Shown in pieces: positions 10,996 through 54,589 of a DNA stretch of 64,000 bases (within the stretch, counting starts at the first letter, position 1; the number at the start of each line of letters is the position of its first letter). The notes beneath the pieces are model-generated. The model worked only from the letters and a program-made list of their open reading frames with translations. It was not told the DNA's origin and made no database searches. Origin of the DNA: Mytilus galloprovincialis (lineage: Eukaryota > Mollusca > Bivalvia > Mytilida > Mytilidae); NCBI RefSeq assembly GCF_965363235.1, contig NC_134846.1, positions 32,684,218 through 32,748,217 of the forward strand, read 5' to 3'. A program made the translations under genes and the position numbers.

Positions 10996-11120
10996 CTCGT
11001 GTATTACGATATTTCTCCACTCTCGACAGTTAAATTTTATTATTTAAAGGGCTCGGCAAGCCTCGCGCTTTAAATAATAAAATTTAACTGTCTCGAGTGG
11101 AGAAATATTGTAATACACTT
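10996..11120. mobile_element. Near-perfect long hairpin (fold-back/MITE-like)
   Basis: Arms of about 55 bp (GTGTATTACGATATTTCTCC ... versus GGAGAAATATTGTAATACAC) enclose a short GC-rich centre. The arms include a long AT stretch TTAAATTTTATTATTTAAAG and its complement. Few mismatches, so young or recently converted. Duplicate at 53872-53996. Confidence 0.8.
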
Positions 11121-11713: not shown

Positions 11714-11874
11714 TTGAGTTATATACTGATGCAGGTTGTTATAAAAACAAAAACAATGGGAAAAGTGGTAAAATGATATTAAAGGATGGACCTCATCCTG
11801 AGAATCCAATGTCTGCAGAAATATGTTATAAAGTTTGTACAAGGGAAAACAGGTTTAATTATTTTGGAACACAG
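11714..11874 (+). CDS. Gene 2 exon: WSC N-terminal half
   Basis: Acceptor TTTCTTTCACAG, phase 1 in, phase 0 out (ACACAG|GTGAGA). Encodes ELYTDAGCYKNK ... MSAEICYKVC ... YFGTQ with three cysteines. The reading frame running on past the donor is intronic. Confidence 0.85.
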
Positions 11875-23975: not shown

Positions 23976-24195
23976 GCACATAGGGTTAAAAAATCAAAAG
24001 TATATGTAATAATATGTTTTAATTGTCTCCAATGACGTATTTTTTCAGACTTTTCTTTACTGAATATAATGATCCAACAAAAATGACGTAATCCAAAACA
24101 AACGTTTTATATTTAAATGTAACGGTTTCTTTGTCCAATGCAAGTATTTTTAGAGCAGTAAATATCATAGATACCAGGACTGAAATTTTACATTT

Positions 24196-24239
24196 GCGCC
24201 AGACGCATTTTTCATTTACAAAAGACTCATCAGTAACGC
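24196..24239 (-). ncRNA. Partly decayed hammerhead ribozyme, antisense in gene 3 intron
   Basis: Minus strand: stem I GCGUUA/UGGCGC pairs fully, CTGATGA and GAAA are present, UC cleavage site kept; stem II has a C-A mismatch and stem III (AATGCG) is irregular. Activity doubtful. Usual repeat flanks (TTAACTTTGTACTTTATTTG; GTCCTGGTATCTATGAT). Confidence 0.65.
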
Positions 24240-24668
24240 TCAAATAAAAAGCGATTTAAAAAGGACAAATAAAGTACAAAGTTAACGAGCATTGTGGACC
24301 ATAAATTCCCAGCAGTTTTGCCAAATACTCCAAATGTTATCTATTCCTGAGGTAGAAACACCTTAGTATTTAAACAATTTAACGTCTTGTACATAGTTTA
24401 TTTATAATTATGACCATAACAATGATAATTCATGTCAAAACAGACATTGAAAATTGTAGCATATATTCATTTGTCTCTTCTTAATGCCACGATTTTAGGA
24501 GGAAATACTAATCTGAATGTCTTTGATTTGAAACACACGATATTCTGTGTTCGGTTATTTAGCTTTAGAATACAAAATAATATGATTATGGATTCTATAC
24601 GTATATAGCCATACATCGTAATATTTATATAAGTTTTTCTTAATTTATGTAAATCTTATTTTATGTAG

Positions 24669-25970: not shown

Positions 25971-27909
25971 ATAAATTGTTCTATAGTTTTTTTCGAATGC
26001 CATATGTGAGAGCTCTGATCTTATTTCAATTCAAGAGACTGCATGAACTCGTTTTACGTTAGAAAATAGAAAATATACCTCGAACTCCTTTCCATTTATT
26101 TATTACGAATGCGCCTATTGTTAATTTATACAATGTCAAATAAATACGTCTCGCAATACCTGCAATCAAATGACCTTACAATATTAATTCCCACTAAAAT
26201 TGATATTGTTTTCTATTGGTTACAGCAATAAACATATGTGAACAGCAAATATCTTTTTAATCGTGTATATAACACGAAAATATGGGAGTAGAGACGATGA
26301 TGTATTTCTCCTGCTTAACTTTGTTCAAATATGTTGCTATGATTAATGATGGGATAAATCTAGAACATCATTTCAGACGCAGGAAAAAAAGTTCTTATTT
26401 TCATTGTGTAGTGTGTGGTAGACAAAGCCACCGTCCCCCAAAGTATTGTTAGCCCAGTAGTCAGTGCTGCGCGTTTAACAAGATTTAATTATGAATAAAA
26501 AAAATTGTTCACTTATACATGTTATAGGTGAAGAATTTATGTAGAAACTAAGGTACTAACTACCCCATGCAAAATTAATCTCACATGGATGTGACTATTA
26601 CGTATATGATTCCATTTGGTCATAAAGCCCTTAATGTGTATTGGTACTCATACATACACACATAGCTTTCAAATCTTTGTATTTGTATATTTGATGAAGG
26701 TTAATTCAGAAAAACGCATAATACACCCGCATATATATGTAACTATATCTGCATTGAATAGATTTAAGAATTGGCGAATTAAATAACCACGAAGTATGCT
26801 TGAAAGGACTTCACTGAAAAAAGTAAGCGCAAACATATGTTGGTAAACAATGTAGTATCTTAGAAACTAGTCCTTCTTTTTTTTCTTTCATTAATACATG
26901 ATTAACGCGTCTTTTTTTTTCGCAATAAAACAAAAGGTTTTTGCAAAGCCTGTAAAAAGCACACTGTTTGTATATCTCATTGTATTAATTTCATCAGACA
27001 AAACTTGTTTTAATGCTACAATTTCCGTGCATCGTACCAATTTGTTTCAGTTAGTCCAATTACGAATTAATTTTCTAAAAAGAGAATGTCAAACGTTGTC
27101 AATCATTATAACGATTGAAAAGCAACTGTTGTATTTCTGTCTTAACACATTAATTTTGTTTTCAAATGAAAATGGTGGTTTGAAGCTGGTTTTATACCGA
27201 GCTTATAACCCTACCTGTATGAATGTTGTTTAAAATACCGTCGTATTCCTTATGTGCCTATCCGAAGTCTGGAACCTGTTGTTGTGATGTTTGTTCTTGT
27301 CTGCCATATTTGATTTTCGTAGGTTGGTTTGTTATAAATTATGGCGTTAATTTGCTCAATTGAATTATGTCATTTTCCATGACAGATAATTTTTAGCCGA
27401 CTTTACAATACTTGTTTTTCTTCAATCTTGAATGTTGTATGATAACTTGTGATTGCTCACATCCATTTCATTTGAATTTGGTAGTTGTCTTATTTTGCAA
27501 TCATACCACATCTCCTTGATTATTACAGATGCATTTGTGTGTCATAAGATTTTACGGCAGGGTAATGAACACAGTTAAACAATCATATCACTCAACAGGA
27601 AAAAATAATCCCCATTTGAATGTAAATTCAATGTAAATTAACTGCAGGATGATTTTATCACTTTTACTTTGCCATACTTCAAGTCTTATTTACAAGCATT
27701 TAGCATCATGTAATGTTTTATTTGTTATTTTATTTATATAATGAATAAATCGCATATATAGTGTTGCATTCAGCAGCAGCTTTCAATTATGTGAACTTGC
27801 ATTATATTTTGCGCACTTGCTCATGAAAGTGACTGTAACTCATCATGCAACAATTGTTGTCATTTATGAGAAATATGACTTATAACAAATACCAGGCTCA
27901 TAACTGTGT

Positions 27910-27953
27910 ACGACAAACGCGCGTGTCGTCTAAAAGAGACTCATCAGTTACAC
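27910..27953 (-). ncRNA. Hammerhead relic upstream of gene 4
   Basis: Minus strand keeps CTGATGAGTCT...AGAC and CGCGCGTTT, but GAAA has become GACA and stem I is unpaired. The equivalent relic at 34702 shares the GACA change, so the insertion is older than the split of genes 4 and 5. Confidence 0.55.
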
Positions 27954-28420
27954 TCGAATCAAAACGATAATAAGTCACATCGATTACAAAGTTGAAGACA
28001 TGTCTTCTTAATTTCATATCATCTTTACTTATGTTGCTTGACATGCATCTGTTATTGTCAGCATTACATATGCACATATATGTTAATTATTCCGCAGTTA
28101 TTTCAGCTTCCCCTCAATGTGTCACGTATACTTTTGTTCAAATGATGAATCGCAGAGGGCAATGTTTTACTTCGTCACTTAGATATCATATAGTTATTTG
28201 CAGTATGCTTGTTACAGATGAATACTAATTACTGCTATACCATTTTTAAAATCCTCGTTTTCTAAAAACAGTAATAGTGTTTTTCTTTATATAGTTTTAA
28301 TAATAATTAAATTACGATAACATTACAAATAAAAACAAAATGTTTGTGTTTTTTAACGTATCGGAAGTGACCTTAGTTTAAAATTTATGATGATAATATG
28401 GTTGATGTTTACATGTTTAT

Positions 28421-28543: not shown

Positions 28544-28844
28544 GTAAGTAGACTGTCATATTATAATGTATAATGTCTACTCTATGATATTTGAGAAAAA
28601 AAAACCGCTTATTTCTTTTAATTTCATTTTAGTTTCAATGTATAGGCAAATTGATTAATACTAGTAATTAGCACACAAAATGAAATTCCTATTTAGATGT
28701 CAGTTCTTGGTAACCTTAATTGAGTTTAGGGCAAATGTACTATCTCTGCACACTTTGTTTTTATCGACAAGATATCTACACCGTTCCCTATGTTCAATAT
28801 CAAATCAAAACTCATTGCAGTATTTAATATTTTTATCATTTCAG

Positions 28845-29000
28845 CATTTCCTTAAAATGTACACGTACATTGGATGCTTTGAAGATCGAAATAAAAGACT
28901 CTTGCATGATGGACCATATACAGGGAGAAATAATAAAATGTCCACAGAAATCTGCTTTAATCACTGCAATTCAAAACAATATGACTATTTTGCAACAGAG
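28845..29000 (+). CDS. Gene 4 exon: WSC N-terminal half
   Basis: Acceptor ATCATTTCAG; open in phase 0 as HFLKMYTYIGCFEDRNKRLL ... ICFNHC ... YFATE|GTAGGA. Another acceptor at 28820 would also keep the frame. Gene 5 has the same ATG just before YIGC. Confidence 0.75.
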
Positions 29001-32000
29001 GTAGGATCAATTTTGCCAAAATACTTATTTTTTCTTCAATATTCATTATTGTAAAAAAATAATTTTAATTTCGAAACATAAGTTCAAAGGTTTTATTTGT
29101 TATCTAAATACTTATCCACGTGCACTTCCTTTTATTAAGGAATTCATCCAACTTAATAGCAACAATATACAACAGTGAAAGCGTCAAATGGATAATACAA
29201 CTAGAACTGTGAAAGGATATAACAACTCAATGTATAGCATGCAGTATATATACATGCACCTGTACTAACCCTCTTACCTTTTATAACATTGTGTATATAC
29301 ATGTAATTACAGTACAGAAACCAGTGTTTTTGTGGTAATGGGAAAAGTCTCACTTCTGAGAAGTATCCTAGAAAACCTGAAAAAGGTAATTGCAATATGG
29401 CATGCACAGGGCATGTAAATGAAACATGTGGTGGCACTTGGAGAGCTTCTGTGTATAACATAATTAGAAATGGTGAGTAAACTTATTGCTCCTTTAACAT
29501 TAAAAAAAAATATTATGCCGTTATTAACAAGTTACTTTCTGTTCAGAATTGTATGTATTTAACGCCATGAATTTTCTGGCGATATTTTTTATGCAAATAT
29601 ACGTTTTATATCATGATAATAAAATTGAGAATGGAAATGGGGAATGTGCCAAAGAGACAACAACCCGACCATAGAGCAGACAACAGCAGAAGGTCACCAA
29701 CAGGTCTTCAATGCAACGAGAAATTCTCGCACCCGGAGGCGTCCTTCAGCTGGCCCCTAAACAAATATATACTGGTTCAGTGATAATGAACACCATCCTA
29801 AACCCCAAATTGTACACAAGAAACTAAAAGTTAAAAAGACTAACAATGGTCTGTATCTTTCATCGGATCAAACAAGCAATGCCGAAAAAATACACAAACC
29901 ATAATGTTCTCTTTGAATAAAAAAAACTGATTTAACAAATTTAAATCTTTCGGCACATGAAATGTATTTAGGTGGTGTCATGTTCGGAGATCTTATACTG
30001 AATTTACTGTTTCCTATACCATTAGACTATTACTTTACATTCTTTGTCTTTTATTGGTTGTTATAGGCAACACATTTAACGTTGAAAACATAACATTTGC
30101 AGTTTCATTAAGTGTAATGGTGTATTAATACGAGTTGTGGTAATGCTGACAATAGTTGTTGTTCTAATTTGTATTAAATTTAAAACAATTAAAAGTTTTC
30201 ACAACGAATAATCAAGCTGTCTGAAGTGTACCGTATCACATGTCTCTAGCTCTCATGTTCATTTTTATGTTTTAATTAACGCTTTCTTTTCCCATCATCA
30301 TTAAGACTTCTAAGGTCAACTATGCAAATAAAAATATTATCATGGAACTGATGTTGTGATTAAAAAAGGTTCATTGTCCTATCTATTTTTTTTAAATCTT
30401 ATCTTTTCCTGTAAACTAATGCAATGCTAGACTTTTCAAAGATCTAGGGTTTATAATTATTTGAGACAAAACAGGAGAAGATAATGATAAAAGCGAGTAC
30501 GCGGATACTAACAACTTAACTGCTTTCTTATAGACCTATCGATGTTTGGACCGTTCACGAGTGCACAAAGCCTCACCAGAAATGTTTCTCCTTTAAATCT
30601 AGTTTACTTCGATATATATATATGTTAATTTTTATTCTGAAGGTATTTTGATATCTTTTAAGAATACTTTTTTTCTGGAATTCGGTCACAATGATAATAC
30701 ATTATTTTCATTCTAGGTCACAAGGTTTCGACAACAACTCATACACCAACACGTCACAAGCAGAGAACGTCTAATATAGGTACATGCACACCCTATTTTT
30801 TTATTTTCTTCAATTCTTTTCTAGGTTTAAATTACTATTTTTGATATCAACTAAATTCCTTTTTTTGACGATTTGATTTACTTTAATCAATTTGATAAGA
30901 ACACAATGAATGTTCAATTTATCTTCCTCTACAGAAGTTTCATGCGTTAAAACACATTTTCATGATTTGGATTAAATCAATAATTGACTCCTTGAAAATA
31001 CTCCATACGCATGCATTTTGTACAATTGCTTTAAATTGTCTAAACATATGTAGTTACAAGTAAGAAAATTTCAATATTTGATGTGTGATAATAGGTATAC
31101 AATTGGTTAGAACCGTTTCAAATACATTACTTTTACTAGTAGTCTCTTAAAAATTAATTCCAATTTTGATAATTTATAATTTATATTAATGTATTCCGTT
31201 GTAGGCATTGGTGTTGGAATAACCATTGTGTTGCTCCTAATCATAGTTGCAGTTATCAGTTGTTTGTTATGGAAAAGAAGGTACAATAAATTCTAATTTA
31301 CTCTGTTGATAAGTACGATTAATGATTATTATTGTGTTCTATGTAGTATTTCATTGTTCTTACGCCACACAAATAGTATATGTAAAAAGAAAAGCAAACA
31401 CAACAAGAATGCCAGAATAAATTGAAAAATATTTTTACAGACATACGAACGAGGACGGAATCAAAGTTATGGCAAAAACGTTTATAAGTATATCCTCATC
31501 TTCATTTTATTGAATTAATGTTGTTTTTATGTTCTATGTATTATAATTCTTTGATTTTACGTAAAGAAAAATAAGTATTCCTATTTGAATAATGAAAATA
31601 TATTCTGTTTCCATGCCTATGAAACTAGAAGCTATCAACTATGAATTGTTAATAACGTTGCAAACTTCCTTTTGTTATAATCAATCAAACTCCCTAAAAT
31701 TTTACTTTTTTGTTTTAGAAAACAAAAAGCTCATATAAAAGAATCGTCAATGATTGATCACGAGTATGATAGAAACCAGAATATAACCACCGTAGACAGT
31801 TCATCCATCGAGATGCATGTCTATGAAAATGGTCATTCAAACGGCTATTCAAATTCGAATAATACAACACAAATTTCAAATGGATATATCGTACCCCAAA
31901 CGTCGAATACGACTGTAAATCACGTGAACAATAAACGCGAAACAGACTCCGGGCATGCACATGATCAACCAGATAAAAGATCAATCCTTAAAAGCATATT

Positions 32001-34650: not shown

Positions 34651-34701
34651 CTCAAATAAGTAAAATAAAAGCTCTTCAAAGATAACAGGATTATAACTGT
34701 A

Positions 34702-34744
34702 TACGTCATACACGTGTCGTCAACAAAAGACTCGTCAGTGACGC
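34702..34744 (-). ncRNA. Hammerhead relic upstream of gene 5
   Basis: Minus strand GCGTCACTGACGAGTCTTTT with GACA in place of GAAA. Homologous in place and in the GACA change to the relic at 27910. Confidence 0.55.
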
Positions 34745-35210
34745 TCAAATAAAAAGTAAAAAAAAAAAGACTAAAGAACATGAATAAATTATAAAAATTG
34801 AATAGCTTTCTTCAGTTATTTCATATCATATTTAGGAGACGTGTGTCAGACATTGTCGGCTGCCAACTGTTTTACTTGCACATATTTTGTACTTATTACA
34901 GTGTTCCTGTATGCCATCACTCATATCAGGGAAAATGGTATACTTCGTCATTTAAATATTTAAATAATATATAATGATTTGCAGTGTGCTAGGTTGAACT
35001 GGATAAAAACTTTCAGTTACACCATATTTTTTTTATTCATAGTTTTCCTATTCAAAATGTTTAGTCTGTGTTTTTGTTTATATACTAGGAGTAACAATCA
35101 AATTACGATAACTTCCAATAGAAAACTGTTTTTGTTTGTGTTTTAGCGTATCAGAATTGACTAAACTTTAAGATTTATGATGATAATAAGGTTGATGTTT
35201 ACATGTTTAT

Positions 35211-36046: not shown

Positions 36047-39000
36047 GTACACACTATGTTTGCAAACATACGTATTTAAAAATAAATTTTGAGTATTTAT
36101 TGACGTTTAATACAAAACACGTTGAGCTAGGATTGTATGTACGTGTTTAACACGTGCATTTGTATAATTTCGAGAATACATCTAAGTAGCTACAATATTC
36201 AACATGAAGACGTGTTTACTCAAATTTTAAAAGCACTAAAGTACTGCATAAGATTATCGGTTAATTACAAAGAAGCTGGTGCAAAACCAGATAGTCTCCG
36301 ATCACCATTGATATTATTTCGAGCAGTGTTTGCGTTATACTCGTAAGCTCGTGAAATATCATATGCATATATACATGTGTATGTAAAGTTTCGAACTGTG
36401 TAACTTCTTATTATATTACTAAAATTATAAAACAAATAAATGTTTAAACGGTGTTCAATTTTTCTGTTGCCCTTTTTAATATGACTTAATTTTATATAAT
36501 TATTGTGTTCACGTAAGGATAGTCCGAAATGACAGCTCATGACCATATCGATACCGGTTTACACTAAAGCCAAATGAATATAGATATCGAGGAACCAACA
36601 CTTTTCCAATGTAAAAAGGTATTAGTTATAATGCTACAGTATATTTTAACTCTTTGCTTGTTTAATAAAACGTATATTGCAGTTTCGTTACAGATGTTAT
36701 TGTGGTAATAGGACAAACATCGGTTCTAACCAGTTTCCAAAAATAAAAGAAAGAGATTGTAGCATGAAGTGCAGAGGGCATCCGTCAATGAAATGTGGTG
36801 GGATATTGGCAGCATCTGTATATAAAATAAATAGAAAGTGTGAGTAAATTATTTCTGATCGTACATAACATGATCATTTTATCTTAGTATACTTGCATTA
36901 TAAACTCATTCGTCTATGAAAAACCTCTTATATAACGCAATTACTTTTTAAAAGTAGTATACTTTTGTAAATATAGGCTTGCTTCAAACAAATACACAAA
37001 AACACACAAACAAGATCCATGGTCTATTAATAGGATGCAACAACACCATATAATAACATGAATGTTATTTTTTTTTCTTTGATCTTCAAGTCAGTTAACT
37101 TCTTCTGTTTTAGGGGAATTTGTTAACTGATTATTCTTTTAGTTAGTGCTGTCTCTAATTCCGGCGTGAGACGCTTGTCATAAGAAAAGCCATGGTTAGA
37201 ACTAATAATGATACTTCCATTTAAGAAATTGTTATTTCACTGCCTAGTGGTGGCTTTCCCTTACATTTGCCAAATATGTTAACATCTGTTTGCATCTGGT
37301 GCAAGAAAATTGGTACCGTTAATTTTATTACTACCACTGGGTCGATGCCTCTGCTGGTGGACTATTAGTCCCCGAGGGTATCACCAGCCCAGTAGCCAGT
37401 ACTTCGGTACTGGCATGAAAATACGGATTTTTTGTGTTATTAAAATTTGCTGTTACAAAATATTAGAAATTATTTTAAATTAAGGAATGTATCTCCCTCA
37501 TGCAAAGCTCTGATTCCTTTCACGGATTTGGCTATACTTTTTGGACCTTTTGGATTATAGCTCTTCATCTTTTATATAAGCTTTGGATTTCAAATATTTT
37601 GGCCACGAGCATCACTGAAGAGACATGTATTGTCGAAATGCGCATCTGGTGCAAGAAAATTGGTACCGTTAATTTTATTACTACCACTGGGTCGATGCCT
37701 CTGCTGGTGGACTATTAGTCCCCGAGGGTATCACCAGCCCAGTAGCTAGTACTTCGGTACTGGCATGAAAATACGGATTTTTTTGTGTTATTAAAATTTG
37801 ATGTTACAAAATATTAGAAATTATTTTAAATTAAGGAATGTATCTCCATCATGCAAAGCTCTGATTCCTTTCACGGATTTGGCTATACTTTTTGGACCTT
37901 TTGGATTATAGCTCTTCATCTTTTATATAAGCTTTGGATTTCAAATATTTTGGCCACGAGCATCACTGAAGAGACATGTATTGTCGAAATGCGCATCTGG
38001 TGCAAGAAAATTGGTACCGTTAATTTTATTAACATAATTTTAACACATTTACTAAAAAAAAATAGTTTTACAGTTCCCTAGAAAATATCTAATCTAAAAA
38101 TAGTTCCCTATACTTTAAACAAAAAAATGCATAAGTAGAGCTTCAAAACGGATTAACGTGGTCTATCAACGTATTTATTTTTAAAATTATTAATTCAGTT
38201 AGCATAATTTACAGGTTCCCAGTTGTCGACGACAGAACAGACACAAAAAATTCCGAAACAAAATCAATTTGATATAGGTAAACAGGTTTCTTTTATATTT
38301 GTCAACTTAAACGATTTTAGTTGATCTTGGAATCAGTAATCATTCCTTTTTCAATAAGTTGAAACAAGGGCATTGAGGGATAAGGCCGAACGTTAGGAAC
38401 AACTACTTGACTGGCCATTTGTTTAGGATGATCAATATCTCGACTGTTCAACAAAGAATGGCACCTACAAGTTCATCATAAACATGACACATACTGTTTT
38501 GTGCCATATTGCATACTTTGGATTCATTATTACTATTATTCGTTGGATACCAATTTTCGTTTGCAGAGGTTTTATATGCAGAGATTGGCAAAACCACGAA
38601 ATCAAAAATCCACGAAAATGCAAGTTTTCCTTCATTCACGAAAATTGGCACCAACAAAAATAAATTAATCCACAGTATTTTTATTTTAACTCTAAAGTCA
38701 TTACAATATCTCCAACGTCAATAATCGATGGAACGAAGTTGGTATTAACTTAGTTACACACATATACTGTTCCTTCTTTCAGATCCGATGTTATCGACGA
38801 CAGAATATACACCAACAATTCCGGAACAAAGTCGATCTGATATAGGTAAATCCTTTGTATATTTATTACCAAGCCCTAATCAAGTTTTCAGAGGAACCAA
38901 AAGATATTGGTGTGGATATATTGAATTAGTTACTTTCGATCCGTAATTATAGATACAACTTCCCGTTCCTTTGTGGAATCTGTTTATTAACATTATTTTT

Positions 39001-41327
39001 ATAAGCTATACTCAACTAGTGTCAATCTAAAATTATGCACACGACTGTTTTTTGTGAAGATAGTTTTGAATTATTTTAGAATATGTAATAAAAATCATGA
39101 TCATTATTATCGAATTTTTATGTGATGGAACAATTTGAGAAAAAAGAAATACTATTCTAATAATACAGTCACTGGCAGATTCGTTTCACTAAGATCTTAT
39201 AATTATAAATAATAATAATAAAAAAGTTTAATGTTAAATATTGTTTAAATGCTTTTATTACAAGTAGGTTAATATGAGCGTCACTGATGAGTCTTATGTA
39301 GACGAAACGCGCGTCTGGCGTACTAAATTATAATCCTGGTACCTTTGATAACTATTAACAACGAGCAAAAAAAAAACAGCATAGTTTTGTGTTTATCTTT
39401 TAATTATGTTAATCGGCTAATTTTGTCTTTTGAAAACACTCCAATCATTAAAAACATTTTGGTAAACAGCTAGCTTAAGTAGCATTTAGTTTTCATTCAG
39501 TAAAAAGATGAAAAACAAAAAGACGTCATAACACTGGTATAATTAGTATATATAAATTTAAAACCATTGTAGGTATTGGTATTGGATTGTCAATTGTAGT
39601 GTTCTTATCTATAGTAGCAGCTGTCAGTTTTCTGTTCTGGCGAAGAAGGTATATTCCCATATTAAGTGTAAAAGATACCTAATGTGTTCTCTGCATAAAG
39701 ATTTTCATTTTTCTCTGTTGGCAACAAGAATACATGTAAACAGAAAGGCAAACACAAAAAAAAAAATCTAAATAAATGTAAACGTTATTTTTAAAGACGA
39801 AAATATTTGCAGATGGAGGATGAAGACAAATTCAAAGGAATGACAAAAACTGATAAGGTTGTTAATGACAGATTAGGTATAAAAAGTCACTTTACGACAA
39901 ATACATAAAAAGTATATGCAAAAATTACAGTGCATACGGCATTGATAAAGTTACATGTGTAAAACCATTCAAACGGGAAAACCAATGGTCTAATCTATAT
40001 GAAAAACAAGAAACGAAAAACACTTATGAACCACATCAGCACAGGACAACTACTGAACATAAGATTAATGACTTAGGGAAGGTCAAATGCAGCGAGTTTA
40101 AACGTTTAAATAGGTACCAAACTTTGTCCTTATCTGAAATAGTGTAACATCACAACATAAAGAAGACACACAATAAAACTTACTCGTTTGAAATACACAA
40201 TGTACGTGTATCCTCATCTCATTTCATTCAAAACAGTATTGTATTTAATTTTTACTATTGTAAAAAGGGATAAAGATAGTCTTTTTAAAACATATACTTC
40301 GTACTTTATTTGGCCTTTGGAATTTTTTTGGTCGAGCGTCACTGATGAGTGTTTTGTAGACGAAACGTGCGTCTGGCGCATATACAAAATTTCAATGCTG
40401 GTTTCTATGATGAGTTTATATACTTTGAGCATACCTAACGCCAAATGAATTTTCGTTATTACAGAATGAAAATATTTCCTATTTCCATGCCTATAAAATC
40501 AACTGTATGTACATAAACATTTATTTAATGTATCATTGATTGACAATACGGTATGTTATTTGTATTATAATCATATTTATTGTTTTTATTTCAGAAAACA
40601 AAGAGCCCATATAAAGGAATCATCAATGAGTGAACACGAGTATGAAAGAAATCAGAATGTTCCAATCTCAGATAGTTCGTCCATCGAGTTGCATATCTAT
40701 GATAAATGTCATACATACGGAAATGCAAATTCGAATAATACAACACGAATTTCAAATGAATATATTGAGCCGCAAACATGCAATACGACAGCAAACCACG
40801 TGCACAGTAAACCTGTAACAGACCCAGTGCATACGCAAGATAAATTAGATAAAAGAACAATCATCAAAAACATGTTGCCTTCCTTACAACACAACTACTT
40901 TAAGTTAGGTAATGATATAACCGGCAAAGTAAAAAGGGACCACATTGCAGACACCCCACAAATAGAACTTCCTTTGACAGCCAGTGTCAGCAATGGCGCA
41001 TATGCTATTCTAGATTCAACGGCAACTGGTTTCAGCAAAGGTAAACGTATCCTCCCAAGAAATGAACAAACAAATTATCAAATAAAACTCGAAAAGCAAA
41101 ATCATTTGATTAAAGGTGATGAAGACTACTGCTGTGTTGAAGGAGAATATAATACACTGAACAAAATCCGGAGATTTTCTAATGAAGGTAGTTTATATAG
41201 TCATGCAGTGGATGGTGTTTATGACATATCCGGAAATAACAACCAGTCAAAAACTACAGATCATACCTACGATCATGCCATTGGAAGTCAAACTGTAATA
41301 GCAACTGACTATGATCATGTATTTTAA
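35891..41327 (+). CDS. Gene 5: WSC-domain receptor with doubled linker exon
   Basis: Six exons (35891-36046, 36683-36839, 38215-38277, 38783-38845, 39573-39648, 40595-41327) sum to 1248 bp, a whole number of codons. WSC domain with eight cysteines (YIGCFKDRPGRRLL ... CYCGNRTN ... KCGGILAASVYKI; the usual Trp before ASVY is replaced), two related 21-residue linkers, a transmembrane helix (LSIVVFLSIVAAVSFLF), basic WRRRKQRAH and a 240-residue tail ending ATDYDHVF. The tail parallels gene 4 throughout. Its introns hold four sense-strand hammerhead ribozymes, two of them in a tandem retrozyme-like element. The N-terminus is unresolved, as in gene 4. Polyadenylation signals follow at 41530 and 41606. 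Receptor function is inferred. Confidence 0.85.
36683..36839 (+). CDS. Gene 5 exon: WSC C-terminal half
   Basis: 157 bp, phase 0 in, 1 out: FRYRCYCGNRTNIGS ... RDCSMKCRGHPSMKCGG ... SVYKINRK. Donor AAGT|GTGAGT. Confidence 0.85.
37609..37652 (+). ncRNA. Hammerhead ribozyme, type I, retrozyme unit 1
   Basis: Stem I GCAUCA/UGGUGC (6 bp, one G-U), core CUGAAGA, stem II GACA-UGUAU-UGUC, GAAA, short stem III UG-CG-CA, cleavage site AUC|U at 37646/37647. All core boxes intact, so predicted active. Confidence 0.85.
37960..38003 (+). ncRNA. Hammerhead ribozyme, type I, retrozyme unit 2
   Basis: Same 44-nt structure as in unit 1, predicted cleavage after 37997. Together the two sites would release a 351-nt RNA from the gene 5 pre-mRNA. 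Confidence 0.85.
38215..38277 (+). CDS. Gene 5 exon: 63-bp linker a
   Basis: Phase 1 in and out; SQLSTTEQTQKIPKQNQFDI. Related in sequence to linker b. Confidence 0.85.
   Translation, partial: VPSCRRQNRHKKFRNKINLI
38783..38845 (+). CDS. Gene 5 exon: 63-bp linker b
   Basis: Phase 1 in and out; DPMLSTTEYTPTIPEQSRSD and I. A tandem exon duplicate of linker a: LSTTE, IP and Q-x-x-DI are shared and both end GATATAG|GTAAA. Confidence 0.85.
   Translation: MRCYRRQNIHQQFRNKVDLI
39278..39321 (+). ncRNA. Intact hammerhead ribozyme in short dispersed repeat
   Basis: Stem I GCGUCA/UGGCGU, CUGAUGA, stem II GUCU-UAUGU-AGAC, GAAA, stem III CG-CG-CG, cleavage site GUC|U at 39314/39315. Best preserved member of the roughly 130-bp family; followed by TATAATCCTGGTACCTTTGA. 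Sense strand, in the intron before the gene 5 membrane exon. Confidence 0.8.
39573..39648 (+). CDS. Gene 5 exon: transmembrane segment
   Basis: 76 bp, phase 1 in, 2 out: GIGIGLSIVVFLSIVAAVSF LFWRR. Confidence 0.9.
39797..39857 (+). other. Exon-like segment between membrane and tail exons of gene 5
   Basis: After AAAG it reads RKYLQMEDEDKFKGMTKTDK in the phase set by the membrane exon; matches the EDGIKVMAKT of gene 4 at 31441. Splicing onward through GTTGTT would break phase, so if used it would end the protein soon after. Confidence 0.3.
39960..40165. repeat. Dispersed mussel-type repeat
   Basis: AACCAATGGTCTAATCTATA, GAACCACATCAGCACAGGAC, AACTACTGAACATAAGATTA, TAGTGTAACATCACAACATA. I recognise the type from memory of mussel sequences; some segments (AAACCAA, AACGAAAAACA) are also seen in family X at 41930. 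Confidence 0.5.
40336..40379 (+). ncRNA. Nearly intact hammerhead ribozyme in gene 5 last intron
   Basis: Stem I GCGUCA/UGGCGC pairs fully, CUGAUGA, GAAA, stem III CG-UG-CG and UC|U cleavage site present; stem II GUGU/AGAC has one G-G mismatch. May keep activity. Same repeat family as 39278. Confidence 0.75.
40595..41327 (+). CDS. Gene 5 exon: cytoplasmic tail
   Basis: Acceptor TTTATTTCAG, phase 2 in, stop TAA. Tyrosine sites include GAYAILDSTATGF, DYCCVEGEYNTL, LYSHAVDGVYDI, TYDHAI and ATDYDHVF. Confidence 0.9.
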
Positions 41328-44372: not shown

Positions 44373-45153
44373 GTAAGTTTTCCAGTTTTAAATATTCGAA
44401 AGGAAATTAATTACTAGGTACAACGTAGTTATACATTTCAAGATTAAAGTGCATATTTGTATTATTATATAATTTTATGAATAGCAATATGCCGAATGTT
44501 TGCACTTTTAAAATTATACATTTTGGTCCCTAGTGGAGAGTTGTCTCACTGGCAATCATACCACCTTTTCTTATTCTTATAATGATATATATTTTTAAAC
44601 CAAATTGTATCTTTATAAATTGATGCATACACTATAACACTATAACAGTTGACATATACACAAATGACCATAATTTACAAATAAAAAAGAAGATGTGATA
44701 TGATTGCCAATGAGACATAACTCTCCACAAGAAACCCAAATAACACAGAAATTAACAACTTTAGGTCACCGTATGGCCTTCAACAATGAACAAAGCCCAT
44801 ACCGCAAATGCAGTTTCTTAGTCAATTATGCAATTGAAAGACTGTTTAACCAGAGACCTCACACTCATCGCTTTTTATTTTGTATAATGTGTTAAATGCA
44901 TTTGTGTACTGTATTGCTTGTAAACCCTTCAGCACAACAATGTAAATATGAAGAATGCAACTCAAAGAGAGATAAACGACCTGTCACGTGTGTGGTTGAA
45001 GATATACTAGAAGATGGAAAGATTGTCTCCATTGAAATAGTAGAAGAGAAAAAGAAAAATAAGTGTACAGAAAGTGAAAATTATGGATTTACTTCAAAAT
45101 CAATATGGGTGTCTGACAAATGCAGTGCCGAGTTTAACTACATTTCCTTTTAA
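44318..45153 (+). CDS. Gene 6: signal peptide plus DUF3011/ADEL-lectin-like domain, truncated
   Basis: Two exons, 44318-44372 and 44933-45153, join in phase to a 91-residue secreted product. Exon 1 is a signal peptide (MEIFRIFVGICVLIYCDG) ending at G|GTAAGT. Exon 2 follows CCCTTCAG and reads AQQCKYEECNS ... VTCVVEDIL ... KCTESENYGF ... SIWVSDKCSAEF, the C...YG....IWV..C.A.F pattern of DUF3011 and of ADEL-type lectins of molluscs. After SAEF the sequence passes into the duplicated block (from 45136), giving NYISF and a chance stop, so the normal end of the domain and any later exons are missing here. The intact gene probably lies beyond the second duplicated block. Carbohydrate binding is inferred from the family. 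Confidence 0.7.
44685..44815 (+). repeat. Family X 5' fragment in gene 6 intron
   Basis: AGAAGATGTGATATGATTGC, CCAATGAGACATAACTCTCC, TTAACAACTTTAGGTCACCG, AACAAAGCCCATACCGC. An antisense scrap of the same family is at 44525-44580. Confidence 0.75.
44933..45153 (+). CDS. Gene 6 exon 2: DUF3011/ADEL-like domain, cut
   Basis: Phase 1 in. The native coding sequence ends at about 45137 at the duplication junction; the last five residues come from otherwise non-coding sequence. Confidence 0.7.
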
Positions 45154-47079
45154 GAAAGATATATTTGTTTCAGGGGAATCATGGGATGTGAGACACATCT
45201 GTGATGCTATAGGAAATTAAGGGAGTGTGTGGAACATGGAGTAAAAAATTTTCACTCTATGTTCATAATGTTATTGAAAACAAATTGTTTGTTTTTGTAA
45301 CTAAGATGAAGTGGTTTATCCTACAAAGATGAATGATCGGCACTTTAAGAAAATTTATATTGATTTGGAAAACTGATATAAGGACATGAAATTTGCTTGA
45401 CAACAGGCCACCTTCGGATCAATCAAAGAGTTGCACTCTTCCTAGACGAGGCATCGAATTTAACGTCCCCATTTTTATAGTTCGTACCTGTACATCATGC
45501 AAAATCACACTTACATGTAGGCTAAACTAACTCACATTTTTACTTACAATATTAGAGTTTTTCTCATAAAGTTGGGAATGGAAATGGGGAATACAAATGA
45601 ATTGGGAAATAACTGAATTGATGATATCATTATGTATTCCTAATATTGATGATAAAATCCACGTTCTTAATCATTAGTTGTATGTATTACTAACCCACAA
45701 AAGATCTACTTTATTTTTCGAGTGTAAACTCTGATTTTTATAGATGGGAACGTAATATAGTTAAATTAAATTGTTGTGTACACTGATGACTAATGCTAAC
45801 ACCATACCGAGATAAGCTCAATTTGAGTAATATGAAAAACTTACCAGTAGCCACAATATTTATATACCACATCACATTTTTACAAATTTCAATGTTATTC
45901 CAAAAGTTCATTGTAATACTTGCAAATATATGAATATATGTTTGGAAATTCATATCAATGTATAAATATGTTTTTAATTGTGTTGATATTAATATTGTGT
46001 AATGTTCACATGTGCTTTTGAAAATTAAAAGTTGTAAAAGTAGTTTCTTTTTTTCAACTCAGAATTGGTAAATACTGTCTTTTCTTTTCCCACAAGAAAT
46101 TCTAATTGTTCGATGAATAACAAAGTTGTTTAAAAGACTGCTGTCTTCAGATTTATCATCAAGGAATATTGATACGTACATTGGTTGGAGAAAAAAAATA
46201 ACTTCTCACGTGGTTAAAAAAAACAATTAAAACATGAATGATAAATCATTGTAGTAACATTTGTTTTTGTTTATGCACAATTCTGAAAACACATGTATTC
46301 CACGATATTCGTGCATTTTTTATCAAATCAAATAAATTTGTGCAATAGCAATATATATTTTTTTAAATTCATTGATGAAAACTCGCAACAATTTTATGAG
46401 TTAACAATATTGGAAAAACAAGATGTCAACTTCACATAACAAAAAGTAAAATCACAAAAATACTGAACTAAGAGGAAAATCAATTTGGAGAGTCCATAAT
46501 CACATGGCAATTTCAAATAACAAAACGCATAAAAAACAAATGGACAAGAATTGTCATATTCCTGATTTTCAAATGTAGAAAATGGTGGATTAAACCTGGT
46601 TTTATAGCGCTAACCCTCTCACTTTGATGACAGTCTCATCATTGACATTGATACGTTAACTAAACAGACACAACAAATAAATAGTCAAAATATGGGTACA
46701 TCAGTCATCATCGTATAACAATTTTAAAAGAGACAATTTAACAGAACACATAAACATCTGTCTACAAACACATTCATTGATTTGAGTGTCTGACGTCAGA
46801 AAATTTTATACGTCACATAAATTTGTCGTTCAATGTCCATACAAACAATTTTAAAAATTTACATAGGTCTTCAAATTTGTATTTTTATACATGTCTCAAA
46901 CGCTAAAGACATTTATCTAGTTTAAATGATTTGAATAACGACACAAAATTGTCACTAAAAATCTAAAGATATTCACGATCAAGTTATTGATCGTGAGTTT
47001 TCTCATTTCTTTTCAGTAGAAGGAAGTTAGGGAATTGGATTATAACGTGAAGATAAAGAAACTGAAAATTGGAAAATTA

Positions 47080-47638
47080 GTTTCATATGCATGTTGCAGA
47101 TAACGAATGAAGGTCAATTACCAATCAAACGACCATTGCATTCTAGTTCTTTAAAAGATGAATCCGTATCATACAACTTCCTACAGCCTTTATCTGATGT
47201 TTGTAGGCAGTATGCTCTACTAACTGCTTCTATCGATTGCATCCGACCAATGTAACAAATACATTGTATGTATAAAATTACAAAAAAATGGCACAAAAAA
47301 CTACACTGAGTGTACTCAAGTCTATCTAAGAAAAAAGACAACACATGATTTAATCACAATAAATACTTTCTATGTTCTAGCTGCAGTCAGTACTACATGA
47401 TAATGTCACCTTATGTAATTTTTGAATTTTATAGCATTTTTCTAGAAATTTAAAACCAATATTTCAGTTTTCAATTTCTATTTTGTAATTCTTTTTCATT
47501 GCTTGGAGACAATATAATCTAATTTTGGATGTGACGCGTCTTCTAATTTGTCTGCTGACGCCGTTTTGTTTATCATATCTTAGACACAATTTTTTTTGAC
47601 GTCATCAACCTTTTTTCATGATTTACGCCGGTTTATAA
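47080..47638. other. 559-bp segment present only in copy 2
   Basis: Lies between bases equivalent to 4770 and 4771. No terminal inverted repeats, poly-A or target duplication; junction overlap is one base. A 76-codon minus-strand frame (47114-47344) has no family I recognise. It could be an insertion in copy 2 or a deletion from copy 1. Confidence 0.85.
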
Positions 47639-49074
47639 TGGAATTTAGAATCAAATTTTAAGAAATAACTGTAATATTTTGTCATTATATTCGAAATAAC
47701 ATTTAAAAAAATGGTGCACACTGTTAAGTAACCCGCTACACGCGTTATTCAGTGTGCACCACATTTTTATGATATTTCTTTAAAGACAGAAAAAAACATT
47801 ACAGTCACTCCTTAAATAAATATAATTATTGACGAGCAATGAACCCACTTTCGTCAATATTTGTATCAGCTACAAAAAAAACTTTAGACAAAATATATAG
47901 ATCTTTTAATTATCTTTTAAACACGTCTCATACAGATTAACTCTAATTTGTAGTGTTAAAAAATGCTACTCAGACTCTAGAATATCAGGGTTTTACTTTC
48001 TGCTTGATCAAATATACCAGGACTAGTATTTATATTATCATAGTAAAATGCATTTTTTTCTTGAAAATAATCCATCTGTCAAAATCAAGCTCTTTCTCTG
48101 GTCTGTAACCTCATGAACCAACATAATAAATATTCCGTGTATGTTAACCAGGTTGTTATATTTGTTTTTCATTCTCTTTTAAATATCTCACTTAAGACGT
48201 ACATGTATAGTCATGATTCATTTTTATGTTTGTCTACAAATAGAACAATTGAAAATTTCCGTTAATTTCAGAAACATAATGTTGCAACTAAAAATCTTGT
48301 TTTTCAAAATTAATGAAGATATTTGCAATGTATTGTACTTTTCTAGTGAAGGCCTGATTCATGAACATATCATTTTAAATTATAGCATGTATATACCGAG
48401 GTAGTCTTATAAATCACTGTATTGTTTGGCCTCTGTTGTAGCTAGCTAGCTAGCGCTTCTTCGTTAACAATTATACCACATATCCCTATTTATATTTATA
48501 TTTATATATAGAGGGTGCTCCAAACATGACACTTGTTCATTTATTCAAATCATAAATATTTGAACAACACTATTTTACATTAACAAAAACAAGTACAATG
48601 ACTAAGAAGGTAAGACTTGTACGTATACACTTACTAAAAATACTCACGGATGAGGAAACTTCGACGGATATGTCACTCATAGTGAATTAATGTTGTGAAA
48701 CACTCCTAAATATAAGAGATACTTCTTATGAACGTACTTTTATTACGTCAAGTATAATTTGTGTCTGGAATATTAACTTTAGTATTATATTTATTTTGTG
48801 AACCAAGTCCTATTCTGTCTAATCTATCTTTTTGAAACTACATTTTATAATTTTGGAGAAAAAGTTAACAGCGAATAGTAATCAAATTACAAACAAACAT
48901 GGGAGATACAAGTGATGAAAGTAATAGCAACAACGACGGTAAGCTTATAAATAAAGAAATGTTTACAGTATTGTTTTTAAGTGGATAATATTAGGAAAAA
49001 CTGTCAGGAATTGTTGGTCCTCAATGCCATTCAACTTCGCACTTTATTTGACGTTTTAAACATATTCTATTTTA

Positions 49075-49118
49075 GCATCACTGATGAGACTTTTGTAAAC
49101 GAAACGCGCGTCTTGCGT
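49075..49118 (+). ncRNA. Decayed hammerhead ribozyme, duplicate
   Basis: Unchanged duplicate of the relic at 6207. Confidence 0.6.
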
Positions 49119-52100
49119 AAATATAATTTTACAATCCTGATATCTATGATGCGTTTATATATAAATCGTGTATTATTTCACGTTCACTGCATTTCAATAG
49201 TTTGATTGATTGATTTTTTGTTGCTAAACGTCCTCCAATAACTTGCTGCCAATAAAAAAACCTGCAGAATATTTGTAGTTTGGTATAAGTAAACAAAATG
49301 TTTTTCGACTTATCATTCTGCAAGAATTTATTTTAAATGATTTTTGCTAATTAAAAAGCATTTCTTTTTAATATCATTCTGTAAATGAACACATATTCGA
49401 AAGTGGTACACATTTGCGTAAAGGTTCTTTTATCTTTGCCAAACACTTATAACTATTTCCCGAGTTGATTATAACATGTGTGACTCAACACGTAACTATA
49501 ACATGATATTCAACAGAACACGTAGAACCTACATTAAGATAAAAAAAAATGTTTCTAACCTGGTCTCATCTGTAGTCTAAACTTGCCTCTTTGTAACCTC
49601 GTGATGCTTATTTTTCAAATTACAACTTCAGGCTGGAGAGACATATTTTCTTGGCGATTTTGCAGAGATTCTTCTCACATGACATCGTATATCAAATCAT
49701 TATTCAGTAAAACACTAATAATAGCTAAGAAACGTTCAAACGTTCAAAGAGCTTATTGAATAAAAAGAGCCTTAAATAATAGTCATATCAATTCATCAAT
49801 CTATGGTCAACTTTGTCTGAGGAAACGAAATTTTCAACACGTTCTATATATAACGAGGGTGGTAGCAATATATTTACAGAAATTCAAAACATGAGTAGGA
49901 TGAACATTTAAAAAATTAAAAGTAAAACAAAACTGTGATCTTACAACACGTATTTTTCAAGTTAAACAATGTAAAATACTGACTTAAAAGTGATATATTG
50001 ATGACAAAGGCATACATGTATTCAGTTACAAATATAAACAATAAACGCGGATGAGGAAGTTGCGACGGATACTAACGTTATGTATAATGACTGGTTTTCA
50101 TATTGGCAATCCTCAGTATCAGACACAAATTGAAAACGTTTTCTTTCTTAAGATAATTGTAGTTTTGTGTTTGGAAGAGATATATTGGAATATTTATTGT
50201 TATAATATATAATATAATAATTTGTTATACTTGTTTACGTGTTTAATGGGAGATTTCAGCGAAGGTAGAATTAAACAAAATTGTGTTTCGAAAATCATTT
50301 TTAATCCAATATCGTACTCTGTCGTTAACATTTGAAATCACAAGTAAAGTATAATTTTTAAGTTTTAGTATTTATAATATATGCATTTGGCTACGAATTA
50401 TGTTGGACATGTCATATATTTTTGAAGGATTATCATCATTGAATTAACACTAGATTCATAATTTATCGTTAAAAAGACATGTCATGTCACATATTAAAGC
50501 ACGCATGCGCAAAACGTTAATAAACTGTTTTTTTTATATACTCAACGTTTCTACATGTTGTTCTGTCACAATTTAAAAAGTTATGTTTTTAACATTGCCA
50601 TATAAACAAGAGATTGGCTAACCATTGACCTATGTTCAACCCGTCTTTTCTTAAAATGTCATGTGCCAAGTCAGAAATATAGCAGCTATTATCAAATAGT
50701 CCGTTTGTTTCGATTTCAGTTCTGTGTTTCATTGTTCCGTTGTTTTTTTTTACTCTTATACGTGTTTCTCTTAGTTAAAGTTTGTCACCTATATTTGATT
50801 TTGCTTAATTTGATTATGACAATTGTGCAGCGGTATACCACTGTTGACCTTATTTCATGTCAAAACGATTTTTCCATGCATTAGACAGCAAAATGAACTA
50901 TTTCAAACGATAAACAATTTATGCACATATAAAGGATGACGGGTGAAAATGCGTTTGTTTACTTTTTGAAAGTACGAAATAATTGATTTAAATGTATGTT
51001 TTAACACAATTTAATAAGAATATAACTTTCTAATGTATAATAAAAAAAAAGATTAAAATCCAAAAAAAGTGTAATTAAAGCAGCTGAATACATAATATTG
51101 TTGACTGGATGCTATTCATTTCAACTATAGATGCGATGAATTATCACTGACAGTGCAATCATTTCTGATGTGGAATTTTTGGAGGTGCGATGAATTTTGA
51201 TTATTGTTTTTTATGATAAATCGACATGCATCAACTTAAAATAGTCTTAAAAAAATATACACGGGTTGCTATTGGTGGAATAAATTTTTTTCCATCCCAA
51301 AAACTAACAATTGAGTTATAATTTACTAAAAACTTCCTTTTATTTGAAAAGGCACATTAGTTTATATAACAACAGATTTCTTTTTGGAAAAAAAACTATA
51401 TTAATATTTCATATTTTATTGAAAATGAGTATACGTCTATTTTTCAAAATTTTGTTGGGGGGGGGGGGGGGGGGGGCATGAACCAACACCCTCCTCGCAG
51501 GTTTGGATCACTACATGAAAAAAATATTTGTTTTGATTGGCCCTGGAAAAAAATACAAATTACTTTGGCTCAATGGAAAACAAATTGTCTCTTAAAAAAA
51601 AATTCCAAATCCCCCTACCACCCCCACTCCAAGGGAGGATCCAGAATTTTTGAAAGGGGGACGTAATATTAAATTTCGCCGAGCTGAACGATTTTTGAGG
51701 ACCTTTTTTTGCTTAAGAACATAAAATAAGTGTAAAATGCATTTTAGTTAAAGAGTGGGGTTTGGACATTTTTTGTGCCGTATTCTCTACATTAATTGTC
51801 CACTATAAAATGATTGGAAATTTTTGAAAAGGGGACGTAATATTAAATTTCGCCGAGCTGAACGATTTTTTAGGACCTTTTTTTGCTTAAGAACATAAAA
51901 TAAGTGTAAAATGCATTTTAGTTAAAGAGTGGGGTTTGGACATTTTTTGTGCCGTATTCTCTACATTAATTGTCCACTATAAAATGATTGGATGGATCCA
52001 AAGCTATGTACTTATATATCATTTGTCAGTAAAAAATGGACATGGAAAATTATCAATTGTTGTATAGTTAATTAGCATAACCTCACATATTTCTTGTTGT

Positions 52101-53871
52101 AAACAAGATATACGGCTATTCAAGGAAATTTACAGGCAATTTTTATCCAAATGTTTGGTTTGAATGTATCACCAACAACGGAAGTGCGGGTTCCAAATCA
52201 ACCAAATACTACAAATGAGTCGGAAATTACAATGAAGTTGTGAATGACGATCGGCACATGGAGACATGTAGGCCACACTCAGCAGGCAGGTTGCAGTCGG
52301 GCCTCGAACAAATTATTAGTATATCAGTTCGTCGAAACAGACATTCCAGTCAGATAAGGGATTCACATGTAACCCCCCCCCCCCCCCTAAAAAATAAACA
52401 AAAATTACGCCCGTTTTTTTTCCATCATGTTTAATGCTTAATAATTCTGTTGAAAAACTGTTTTTCTAATAGCAAATAGGTAGCCCCCTAGCCTCCCCCC
52501 CCCTAAAAAAGAATGCCCGGTTTTTATTCATCATGGTCAATGCTAAATAATTCTGTTGAAAAATATTTTTATCTAATAGCAAATAAGTAACCCAGATTAT
52601 CATTTTTAATCCAGGTACGGACAGAATTTTAAAGGCAAAATCAGGGTCAGAATTTTTTCTCTAAACTATCTCATACTGCCCCCTCAAATCAAATGGTCCA
52701 TACCTAAGACTTTAAATCTATATCTAGAGCTTACTGACTGGAGATCACTATTCAGCAATGTTGTGAATGGGCTAGAGCGTTTAGGGTGAAACATGTTCGT
52801 TGGTAAATAATATTGGTGTGGAACTTTTTTTTCTTCACGAGAGTGTGATAGAGTATTATTTTCTATTAGTCGGAATTTTGAAATAGAAGTTAATTCGTTA
52901 TTGCTCAATGCTTTGTCGCTTTGAAGGCGTCATGCTTGCTATCTTTATCAGTAAATAATTGTCTCATAAAAATTAAATACACGGCAAAGTTCACGAAGTC
53001 TAGTCTAATTAATCATTTTACCAACAAAAAAAGTACAAGCAAAAGATTGGGGCGTACGCCCTTTACGCTCCCTCTGAATCCGCCATACCCCTCCCCTGAA
53101 AATCAAATGGTTGCCACCTTTGCTGTCCAAGATATATGTATACAATGATGATGTGTCATAGGAAAGGATATATTTAATCATACATATAGATCTGGGTCTG
53201 AACAGATTATCAGAGAATATAGAATTGACAATATTAGCAATAAATGCCATTTTTACGAAATTTATTGATTCATTACCTCAGACTTTCACTCACAAAATAT
53301 GCGTATATAATCAATCCTTCTGACTTAATAAATTATGTTAGAGAGTCGGCTAAATTACGACCCTTATCGGGGCTTTGTATAGCTGACTATGCGGTATGGG
53401 CTTTGCTCATTGTTGAAGGCCGTACGGTTGCCTATAGTTGTTAATGTTTGTGTCATTTTGGTCTTTTGTTGATAGTTGTTTCATCGGCAATAATACTACA
53501 TCTTCTTTTTTTATATTTGTATAATGAAAATCAATTGAAATCCTTCTGTGAAAATGCATCGCATATACAACAGTAATGAATCGCTCTACAGTGAAAATGA
53601 AATTCTCTAATTTTTGTGCTATTTTCACATTTCCTGACCGGTGTGAGAAAAATATTTCTCCTCACTAGTGAAAAATCTGTTCTCGGCAAATGATTAGTCA
53701 AAATTTGATTATGAAGTCAAAATGTTTTGTTTTCTTCTCAATTTTCCTATTGTGACGTCATGAAAAAAGGCGACCTTGCCTGATGACGTCGCATATAAAG
53801 AGCACAATTTTCTGAAAATCTTTGAAAAAGAACGATAAAAAGTATTAGAGAAACAGATTCCGAAACTATAA

Positions 53872-53996
53872 CTCGTGTATTACGATATTTCTCCACTCTC
53901 GACAGTTAAATTTTATTATTTAAAGGGCTCGGCAAGCCTCGCGCTTTAAATAATAAAATTTAACTGTCTCGAGTGGAGAAATATTGTAATACACTT
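53872..53996. mobile_element. Long hairpin element, duplicate
   Basis: Duplicate of 10996-11120, arms unchanged. Confidence 0.8.
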
Positions 53997-54589
53997 GTTG
54001 CAGTGTAAGAATCTATATGTCTGATATCATTATTCAACAGTAAACATGAATCGCATCACCAAAACAACAAAGTGTAATTTGATTCAATATCAACAAGCTG
54101 AACAACAAAACCTTTTTTAAGATATACTATGTGCATTATTAATAATGTTAAAAGGTACATTTTTCTACAAATAAAACGTGGCTGCTACTTTTAAAACTCT
54201 TGCACGCTCTGTTCGTGAACTATTCTTAATATTTATCTATCTGTGTATCAATTTTACACCTGGATGGCTGTAGGCGCGACTAAAATCCGTCCGCATCAAA
54301 TACATTTAATCATGAATTTATAAAAACAGTACATATTGTTTATTATTTCGTATTTTATTCAAAAATTGTGAATTTATCGTCTGTTTATTTATCATTCTAC
54401 ATAAGAAATTCATCACGGATACAGTGCAAATGACATTTAAGGATTCGCACATAACATACACTGAAAATGATATTGTTTCGATTGACAAATACTAGACAAT
54501 TTCAACACTAATTGATAATTCCTTTTTCTTGTATGTTTTATTCAAATGTCGAATATACTTTACTCGTGTTAGATTTTTTTCTTTCACAG

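Follow-up and report, generated by a model that had tools for sequence, protein, structure and literature searches.

A tandem array in the genome of Mytilus galloprovincialis was probably written by a reverse transcriptase that started beside a conserved RNA fold on a circular RNA and dropped off at random. As part of this explanation, the array is taken as a single retrozyme insertion, of the animal non-LTR type and of the subfamily that we name f2 (f1 and f3 denote the second and third subfamilies). The constant insertion end and the adjoining fold, which are described below, are a clue to the way in which retrozymes are copied back into DNA. The window, that is, the whole stretch of DNA that was analysed, has a length of 64,000 nucleotides and is part of contig C9 of an assembly of 1.385 Gb in 331 contigs.

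The array, its ribozymes and its relatives

An earlier note on this DNA had described two near-identical units of 350 and 351 bp with a partial third, and had placed the unit boundaries at the predicted cleavage sites of complete type I hammerheads having a 6-bp stem I and a 4-bp stem II. Both descriptions are confirmed, and the parts of the array are as follows.

37292..38031 (+): whole retrozyme insertion, consisting of GCATC (5 nt), two full units and 34 nt of a third
37297..37646 (+): unit 1, 350 bp, from cut site to cut site
37647..37997 (+): unit 2, 351 bp
37998..38031 (+): 34-nt 3' tail (third unit, partial), the terminus of which matches that of most relatives
37609..37652 (+): first type I hammerhead (A), which should cut between 37646 and 37647
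37960..38003 (+): hammerhead B, identical in letters to A, core at 37966, predicted cut between 37997 and 37998
39258-39360 (+): f1 retrozyme that is truncated at its 5' side and contains a third intact hammerhead at 39278-39321, which scores 33.0 bits in Rfam (cut-off 34)

Both 44-nt motifs of the array are complete: stem I is GCATCA/TGGTGC (6 bp, one of them G-U), the core is CTGAAGA, stem II is GACA-TGTAT-TGTC (4 bp) and is followed by GAAA, stem III consists of 2 bp with a GCGC cap, and ATC precedes the cut. At the left edge, where a leftover 3' half of a ribozyme had been proposed, the letters are indeed present, but they amount to just GCATC. A covariance search with the Rfam type I model, which the earlier note had suggested as a check, gave a match to Hammerhead_1 over the full model length in 71 bases around the first junction, with a score of 31.2 bits (E 1e-6) that falls just under the gathering score of 34. 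At the gathering score, Rfam gave zero matches in the whole window, and a search of 951 bases at E<=5 did not list a hammerhead. When 63 bases around the ribozyme are folded, stems I and II form, with a stability no better than that of shuffled sequences (z 0.71). The f1 copy, which the earlier note had missed, lies 1.2 kb downstream of the array and ends at unit position 45. The f1 hammerhead reads GCGTCA-CTGATGA-GTCT...AGAC-GAAACGCGCGTC-TGGCGT, so that stems I, II and III all differ in letters between f1 and f2, and pair in both.

Units 1 and 2 differ in 4 places, and the commoner state is always found in unit 1. Three of the differences are substitutions in unit 2 that are present in 0, 2 and 2 of the 49 full units from other arrays, and the fourth is one extra T within a T run, which 21 of the 49 also have. 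Unit 1 has 2 differences to a unit of another array compared with 4 to its neighbour; the pair has no rare variants in common, and unit 2 carries its own changes. The GC content of the unit is 37%. There is no open reading frame of 110 aa or more in 37292-38031, and hence the 350-bp unit holds no frame for a reverse transcriptase (RT) with a GIY-YIG domain.

The array thus combines a complete type I core, tandem units within the range of about 150-450 bp with hammerheads at their junctions, many dispersed copies, low GC and no coding region. Animal non-LTR retrozymes are described in the same terms in the available portions of Cervera & de la Pena 2020 (PMC7229834): type I hammerheads with a 2-bp capped stem III in invertebrates, similar unit size, tandem copies, GC below 50%, thousands of copies and, in the mussel, two ribozyme families. 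This likeness refers to the published description and not to the sequences MN642551-MN642576. The same source reports mussel retrozymes of 350-390 bp together with their circular RNAs: in M. galloprovincialis the hammerhead cuts the transcript, RNAs of about 350-400 nt are mostly circles, the circles appear on northern blots of several tissues, gonad and mantle among them, and about 30% of the mussel monomer DRtz_Mg353 is circularised in vitro by an RtcB-type tRNA ligase (PMC7229834). Judged from its letters, the window array should work like an animal non-LTR retrozyme, with self-cleavage and circles predicted for this copy. Elements of this kind are thus not undescribed, that paper having already published them.

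Plant LTR retrozymes are alike in that hammerhead-cut circles are their proposed intermediates, and differ in having type III hammerheads, LTRs, a primer-binding site and circles of 600-800 nt, as outlined in PMC7229834. Sm-alpha and Sj-alpha of schistosomes share the short length, the hammerhead and a very high copy number, whereas Sm-alpha is reported, in the portions of PMC2770079 at hand, as a SINE among tRNA-gene predictions; in the window unit, no tRNA-like part was noticed.

The earlier note had also raised the question of other tandem copies in the genome, and both thousands of copies and other tandem arrays were found. A 35-nt ribozyme pattern (up to 3 mismatches) matches 7,387 sites in the 1.385-Gb genome and a 26-nt body pattern (up to 2 mismatches) matches 18,781, with zero matches for the reversed control of the first and for the control of the second. 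A genome search with the Rfam hammerhead gave at least 37 matches, at least 29 of them over the cut-off, among the 74 of 224,653 candidates that were scored. The 12 body-pattern sites that were picked regardless of the ribozyme are mostly f1 (L075 is f2 and L072 is f3), and all of them have retrozyme sequence around the fold, for about 90 bases only in L069. Searching the genome with the 90 bases of the fold as DNA, by a method that passes over very common words, had returned zero candidates. In viral contigs, neither the fold pattern nor the ribozyme pattern has any match. Besides the array and the copy at 39258, the 64-kb window itself contains seven further retrozyme pieces (not counting duplicates), all shorter than one unit.

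6122-6293, 40296-40424 (+), 24164-24449 (-): f3 pieces
27890-27998, 34676-34755, 56710-56838 (-; duplicate 13834-13962): f1 pieces
18801-19046 (+; duplicate near 61677): old f2 piece

Some of these relatives resemble satellite DNA. In particular, C1:433557-448282 contains 43 matches to the fold pattern at exact 350-bp steps, i.e., a long, regular, satellite-like retrozyme array, and two groups of loci with the same flanks (L058-L060 and L061-L062, at 10.96 and 11.08 Mb of C1) have three and two full units, respectively, which means that arrays alter their unit number after duplication. Both observations would fit satellite DNA whose units spread by unequal crossing-over, with the ribozyme as a passenger. 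Nevertheless, we regard this as very improbable: there are thousands of copies, many of them shorter than one unit, with a shared 3' end and different flanks, and unequal crossing-over may lengthen arrays after insertion but leaves the ends unexplained.

The surroundings of the array contain the following gene-like features.

28680-29054: open reading frame with a WSC domain, upstream of the array
about 38215-38277, 38783-38845 and 39573-39648: exon-like stretches with AG/GT borders, downstream; 39573-39648 has a membrane-span-like reading
frame ending at 41327: open reading frame, downstream

The exon-like stretches and the WSC-domain frame make the intronic setting given in the earlier note likely, as a prediction from sequence alone. 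As for larger repeats, positions 2824-21124 and 45133-64000 form two blocks that are 99.95% identical at an offset of about 42.87 kb, and the array has a second copy at C9:32764386-32765086; together, these represent either a tandem duplication of recent date or a haplotype left uncollapsed in the assembly. Two tandem units of 174 bp, 98% alike, lie at 8770-9117 (and 51645-51992).

Insertion ends, target sites and the probable template

The ends of insertions were compared in a set of 78 that were kept out of 129 in the window and the fetched loci; an earlier version with two queries kept 77 of 127. Insertions at most 15 bases from a locus edge were excluded, as was one of any two with similar flanks. 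Loci had been chosen by an Rfam hammerhead (L001-L008), by similarity to the window unit (L009-L038), by an exact ribozyme pattern (L039-L068, the first 30 places on C1), by the body pattern (L069-L080) and by a GIY-YIG search (L081-L089).

One 3' end is shared by 56 of the 78 insertions, while the 5' ends are scattered. The 3' end falls at unit positions 31-38 in 32 of 40 f2 insertions (uniform expectation 0.9), at positions 39-45 in 20 of 28 f1 insertions (0.55) and at positions 47-51 in 4 of 10 f3 insertions (0.14). Note that these windows, and the sites of the genome-wide test below, were picked after looking at the data, and that the latter has a single control site. The other 22 insertions end outside the tight windows; several of them are old or stop at a fading BLAST match, and one (L050) had its end at 33 in an earlier reading of the ends. 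Two clear departures are L038, which ends at 225, and L066, which ends at 279. The 5' ends of f2 are consistent with a uniform spread (34 insertions, KS p 0.88) and those of f1 are not quite uniform (29 insertions, KS p 0.024), both in the set of 77.

The same end is seen genome-wide. The exact 20-nt tail is followed by 12 more nt of the unit, reaching into the fold, at 657 of 2,126 sites (31%), compared with 2,131 of 2,934 (73%) at the internal control site. On C1, 13 of 16 isolated tails stop at position 33-34 and 3 run on; 13 of the tails had no exact ribozyme listed nearby and 3 proved to have one, and picking isolated tails is biased toward the last tail of an array. Two of these, L093 and L097, are insertions of just 41 and 43 nt, and both cross the ribozyme junction.

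A shared 3' end together with random 5' ends indicates target-primed reverse transcription that stops at random. Only 3 of 78 5' ends (2.2 expected) and 1 of 78 3' ends lie within 5 nt of the cut site; since there are so few, the template is not usually a cleaved linear monomer copied over its full length. Because the ends, apart from the exceptions named, are not at the cut, the template junction should be intact or religated, and the enzyme should start inside the unit. A circle is the simplest template of this type. Retrozymes also sit at different insertion sites: the 61 f2 array loci reduce to 37 after removal of those with the same right flank, and no pair among the 37 shares a left flank. 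These different sites, the thousands of copies, the shared 3' end and the published circular RNAs support the earlier view of a retrozyme-like tandem that moves through RNA.

The same ends would also result from a long linear multimer that stays uncleaved, provided that reverse transcription starts internally, and the units within arrays bear on this alternative. Units of the same array differ by 4.4 on average (36 pairs) compared with 12.0 for units of different arrays (1,239 pairs), and none of 5000 permutations was as low. Of 13 multi-unit arrays, 6 (L024, L025, L029, L040, L049 and L058) have rare variants that every unit carries; the other seven, including that of the window, have none. 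An uncleaved linear multimer, copied from the same internal start beside the fold, would account for heterogeneous units such as those of L028 and L058, where 21 and 12 rare variants are found in single units against 0 and 2 common to all, and a Penelope-like element is reported, in the part of PMC11167929 considered, to initiate internally on linear RNA, even with a mutated ribozyme. On the other hand, all five full units of L025 have 4 rare variants in common, no carried-over leader is seen (the 37 arrays with different right flanks share no left flank), and published mussel retrozyme RNAs are mostly circular, as far as PMC7229834 describes them. We therefore favour the circle over the linear multimer, which we regard as unlikely, yet worth keeping in mind.

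Target-site duplications give a less regular picture. The TTAACAT duplication that had been suggested for the window consists of two copies.

37279..37285 (+): TTAACAT, possible left target duplication, letters present
38029..38035 (+): TTAACAT, possible right target duplication, the first TTA of which may equally be part of the element

The letters are present, although the duplication would require a 6-nt filler (CTGTTT) at the left, and such matches are no commoner than in the control, so that it is unproven here: flank matches of 7 nt or more occur in 2 of 61 insertions compared with a fraction of 0.030 between flanks of different insertions, and those of 6 nt or more in 10 of 61 compared with 0.091. 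For the window insertion, the search for an empty site returned just the duplicated segment, in its two copies, and a single weak match. Six other insertions were compared with empty sites, of which three are clear: L042 has TTTACAG twice (7 nt), L024 has TTA (3 nt) with an AAAA filler at its left, and L092 has up to TTATGG (6 nt). In all three the duplication starts with TT and follows a G, and TTAACAT of the window starts likewise. The remaining comparisons (L045, L037 and L060) are too diverged; in L037, a few target bases may have been lost. Published target duplications, when present, are longer than 4 bp according to the text of PMC7229834 that was available, compared with 3, up to 6, and 7 nt here. 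No preference for target bases was found in the AT content of the flanks (0.67 and 0.70, compared with 0.69 for the window).

The conserved fold and the proposed start of reverse transcription

The shared 3' end adjoins a stretch of about 90 nt that forms a conserved RNA fold and occurs twice in the array.

37331..37421 (+): first copy of the fold, at unit positions 35-125
37681..37771 (+): second copy of the fold, folding z-score -3.1

Between f1 and f2, this stretch is the most conserved part of the unit (84%, compared with 71% for the tail, 69% for the body and 70% for the ribozyme). Within f2, departures from the majority among 51 full units are 0.012 in the fold, 0.020 in the body and 0.011 in the ribozyme, the last figure coming from a sample part of which had been selected on the ribozyme. 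The z-score of -3.1 was reached by 1 of 200 shuffles. RNAalifold with 21 sequences predicts stems and two hairpins in which double changes preserve the pairing, for example GGACU/AGUCC in place of GGACG/CGUCC; the arms of the second hairpin are CCAGUAC or UCAACAC.

In the full count of 26 sequences (all 25 thinned sequences and the first copy in the window), 93.2% of cells pair, and this value drops to 34-44% when the partners are slid. An earlier count of 21 sequences (94.3% paired) had omitted five of the 25 thinned sequences, namely two truncated at the edge of a locus, one carrying a C-run insert and two of the most diverged. Among the 26 sequences, 35 cells are changed on both sides of a pair compared with 13.2 +/- 2.9 in shuffles (0 of 500 as high), while the number of pairs with double changes shows no excess (5 compared with 5.0). 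The covariation mostly reflects the split between two subfamilies. For the central stem, two alternative pairings fit about equally.

The position of the 3' end relative to the fold is nearly constant. The median distance from the 3' end to the first stem of the fold is 6 nt in f2, 7 nt in f1 and 6 nt in f3, whereas the cut site lies 34, 41 and 48 nt away, respectively (35, 23 and 5 insertions ending near the fold). Since the distance to the fold is constant and that to the cut varies, the insertion end follows the fold and not the ribozyme, with only five insertions standing for f3.

These observations suggest a series of steps. A helper reverse transcriptase would bind the fold of about 90 nt (unit positions 35-125) on the circle, the binding itself being a prediction. 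Synthesis of cDNA would start 6-7 nt before the fold, at about unit position 33-34, primed by the nicked target end, which may pair with UU(A) of the template. The enzyme would then move backwards through the ribozyme junction, which is closed on the circle, continue around the circle over a distance that varies, and drop off at random. The expected outcome is that the right end is constant and the left end random, with whole and fractional unit counts and duplications of a few nucleotides. On a circle, the fold may lie downstream of the start, to be copied only after a nearly full lap.

In LINEs, the recognised 3' structure is copied first. It is conceivable, though we put it at rather less than an even chance, that retrozymes carry a dedicated fold for positioning the reverse transcriptase downstream of its start, and are built for target-primed rolling-circle reverse transcription; template recognition would then, as part of the same tentative reading, be unlike that of LINEs. 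Since the fold is copied last, such a layout persists over generations only with a circular (or multimeric) template. The mechanism would explain whole and fractional unit counts, and suggests a natural reverse transcriptase that uses a circular RNA to produce tandem DNA. In addition, one RNA circle, one nicked DNA and a small set of purified proteins would be enough to test the start site, the candidate binding element and the helper. The shared 3' end and the fold were not found in the portions of PMC7229834 and PMC7761336 that were covered or in the open literature searched.

Two other roles of the fold were considered. Inside it, GGGTCGATGCC at unit positions 43-53 (37339-37349 and 37689-37699) has what we take to be a resemblance to a pol III B box, and a T run lies about 80 nt after it. 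Under the usual rules for pol III boxes and terminators, transcription from this motif was set aside because of the run of 6-7 T so soon after it. An early idea was that the fold might be a conserved SINE domain (Nin-DC); the literature searched offered no sequence for a comparison, and this is not claimed.

Penelope-like elements as candidate helpers

The mechanism requires an enzyme from elsewhere, and Penelope-like elements (PLEs) have been named as candidate helpers in the passages available from PMC7229834 and PMC7761336. That the PLEs of the mussel genome mobilise retrozymes, as this published work proposes, is a possibility that we hold with less than even confidence. Such elements are present: five loci have long open frames (781-911 aa) that match GIY-YIG, and of the two loci whose frames were scanned with Pfam, L086 has both RVT_1 and GIY-YIG above the cut-offs and L085 has GIY-YIG above and RVT_1 just below. 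In the portion of Frangieh 2024 (PMC11167929) that was available, a PLE enzyme cuts AT-rich DNA and then begins reverse transcription at an internal site, and some copies have a tail of 30-40 bp; PLEs with hammerheads resemble retrozymes in a hammerhead near the internal RT start, the insertion tail and tandem units, and differ in their frame for RT and GIY-YIG, which the retrozyme unit lacks. Among copies of one mussel PLE, L087 and L089 extend about 30 nt beyond L085, as a tail would.

The insertion sites and the fold speak against this helper. All five PLE loci whose ends were read end beside TA repeats (two families, chosen for long frames, with four other GIY-YIG loci excluded), whereas (TA)4 occurs within 20 bases on either side of none of 60 retrozyme insertions, against a background of 0.4% of the 20-mers of the window. 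This difference serves as a local yardstick from five sampled loci, not as a definition. Moreover, a shared fold was not found when the units were compared with the PLE loci by BLAST. If the separate retrozyme piece in L086 is set aside, the strongest match to the fold spans 29 nt within a frame, on the opposite strand (L088, E 0.003; the same place in L086). A pattern search found no canonical hammerhead that belongs to the PLEs, although minimal or degenerate ones could escape it. Other PLEs or a LINE are possible helpers.

The hammerhead in L086 was tried as a link between PLEs and retrozymes and rejected: it belongs to an independent retrozyme, truncated at its 5' side, that lies 1.2 kb past the frame and outside the direct repeats of that PLE. 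In L085, L087 and L089, the copies of one PLE mentioned above, the 3' end takes one of two places separated by about 30 nt, each beside TA repeats, which resembles the 'tail' described for other PLEs.
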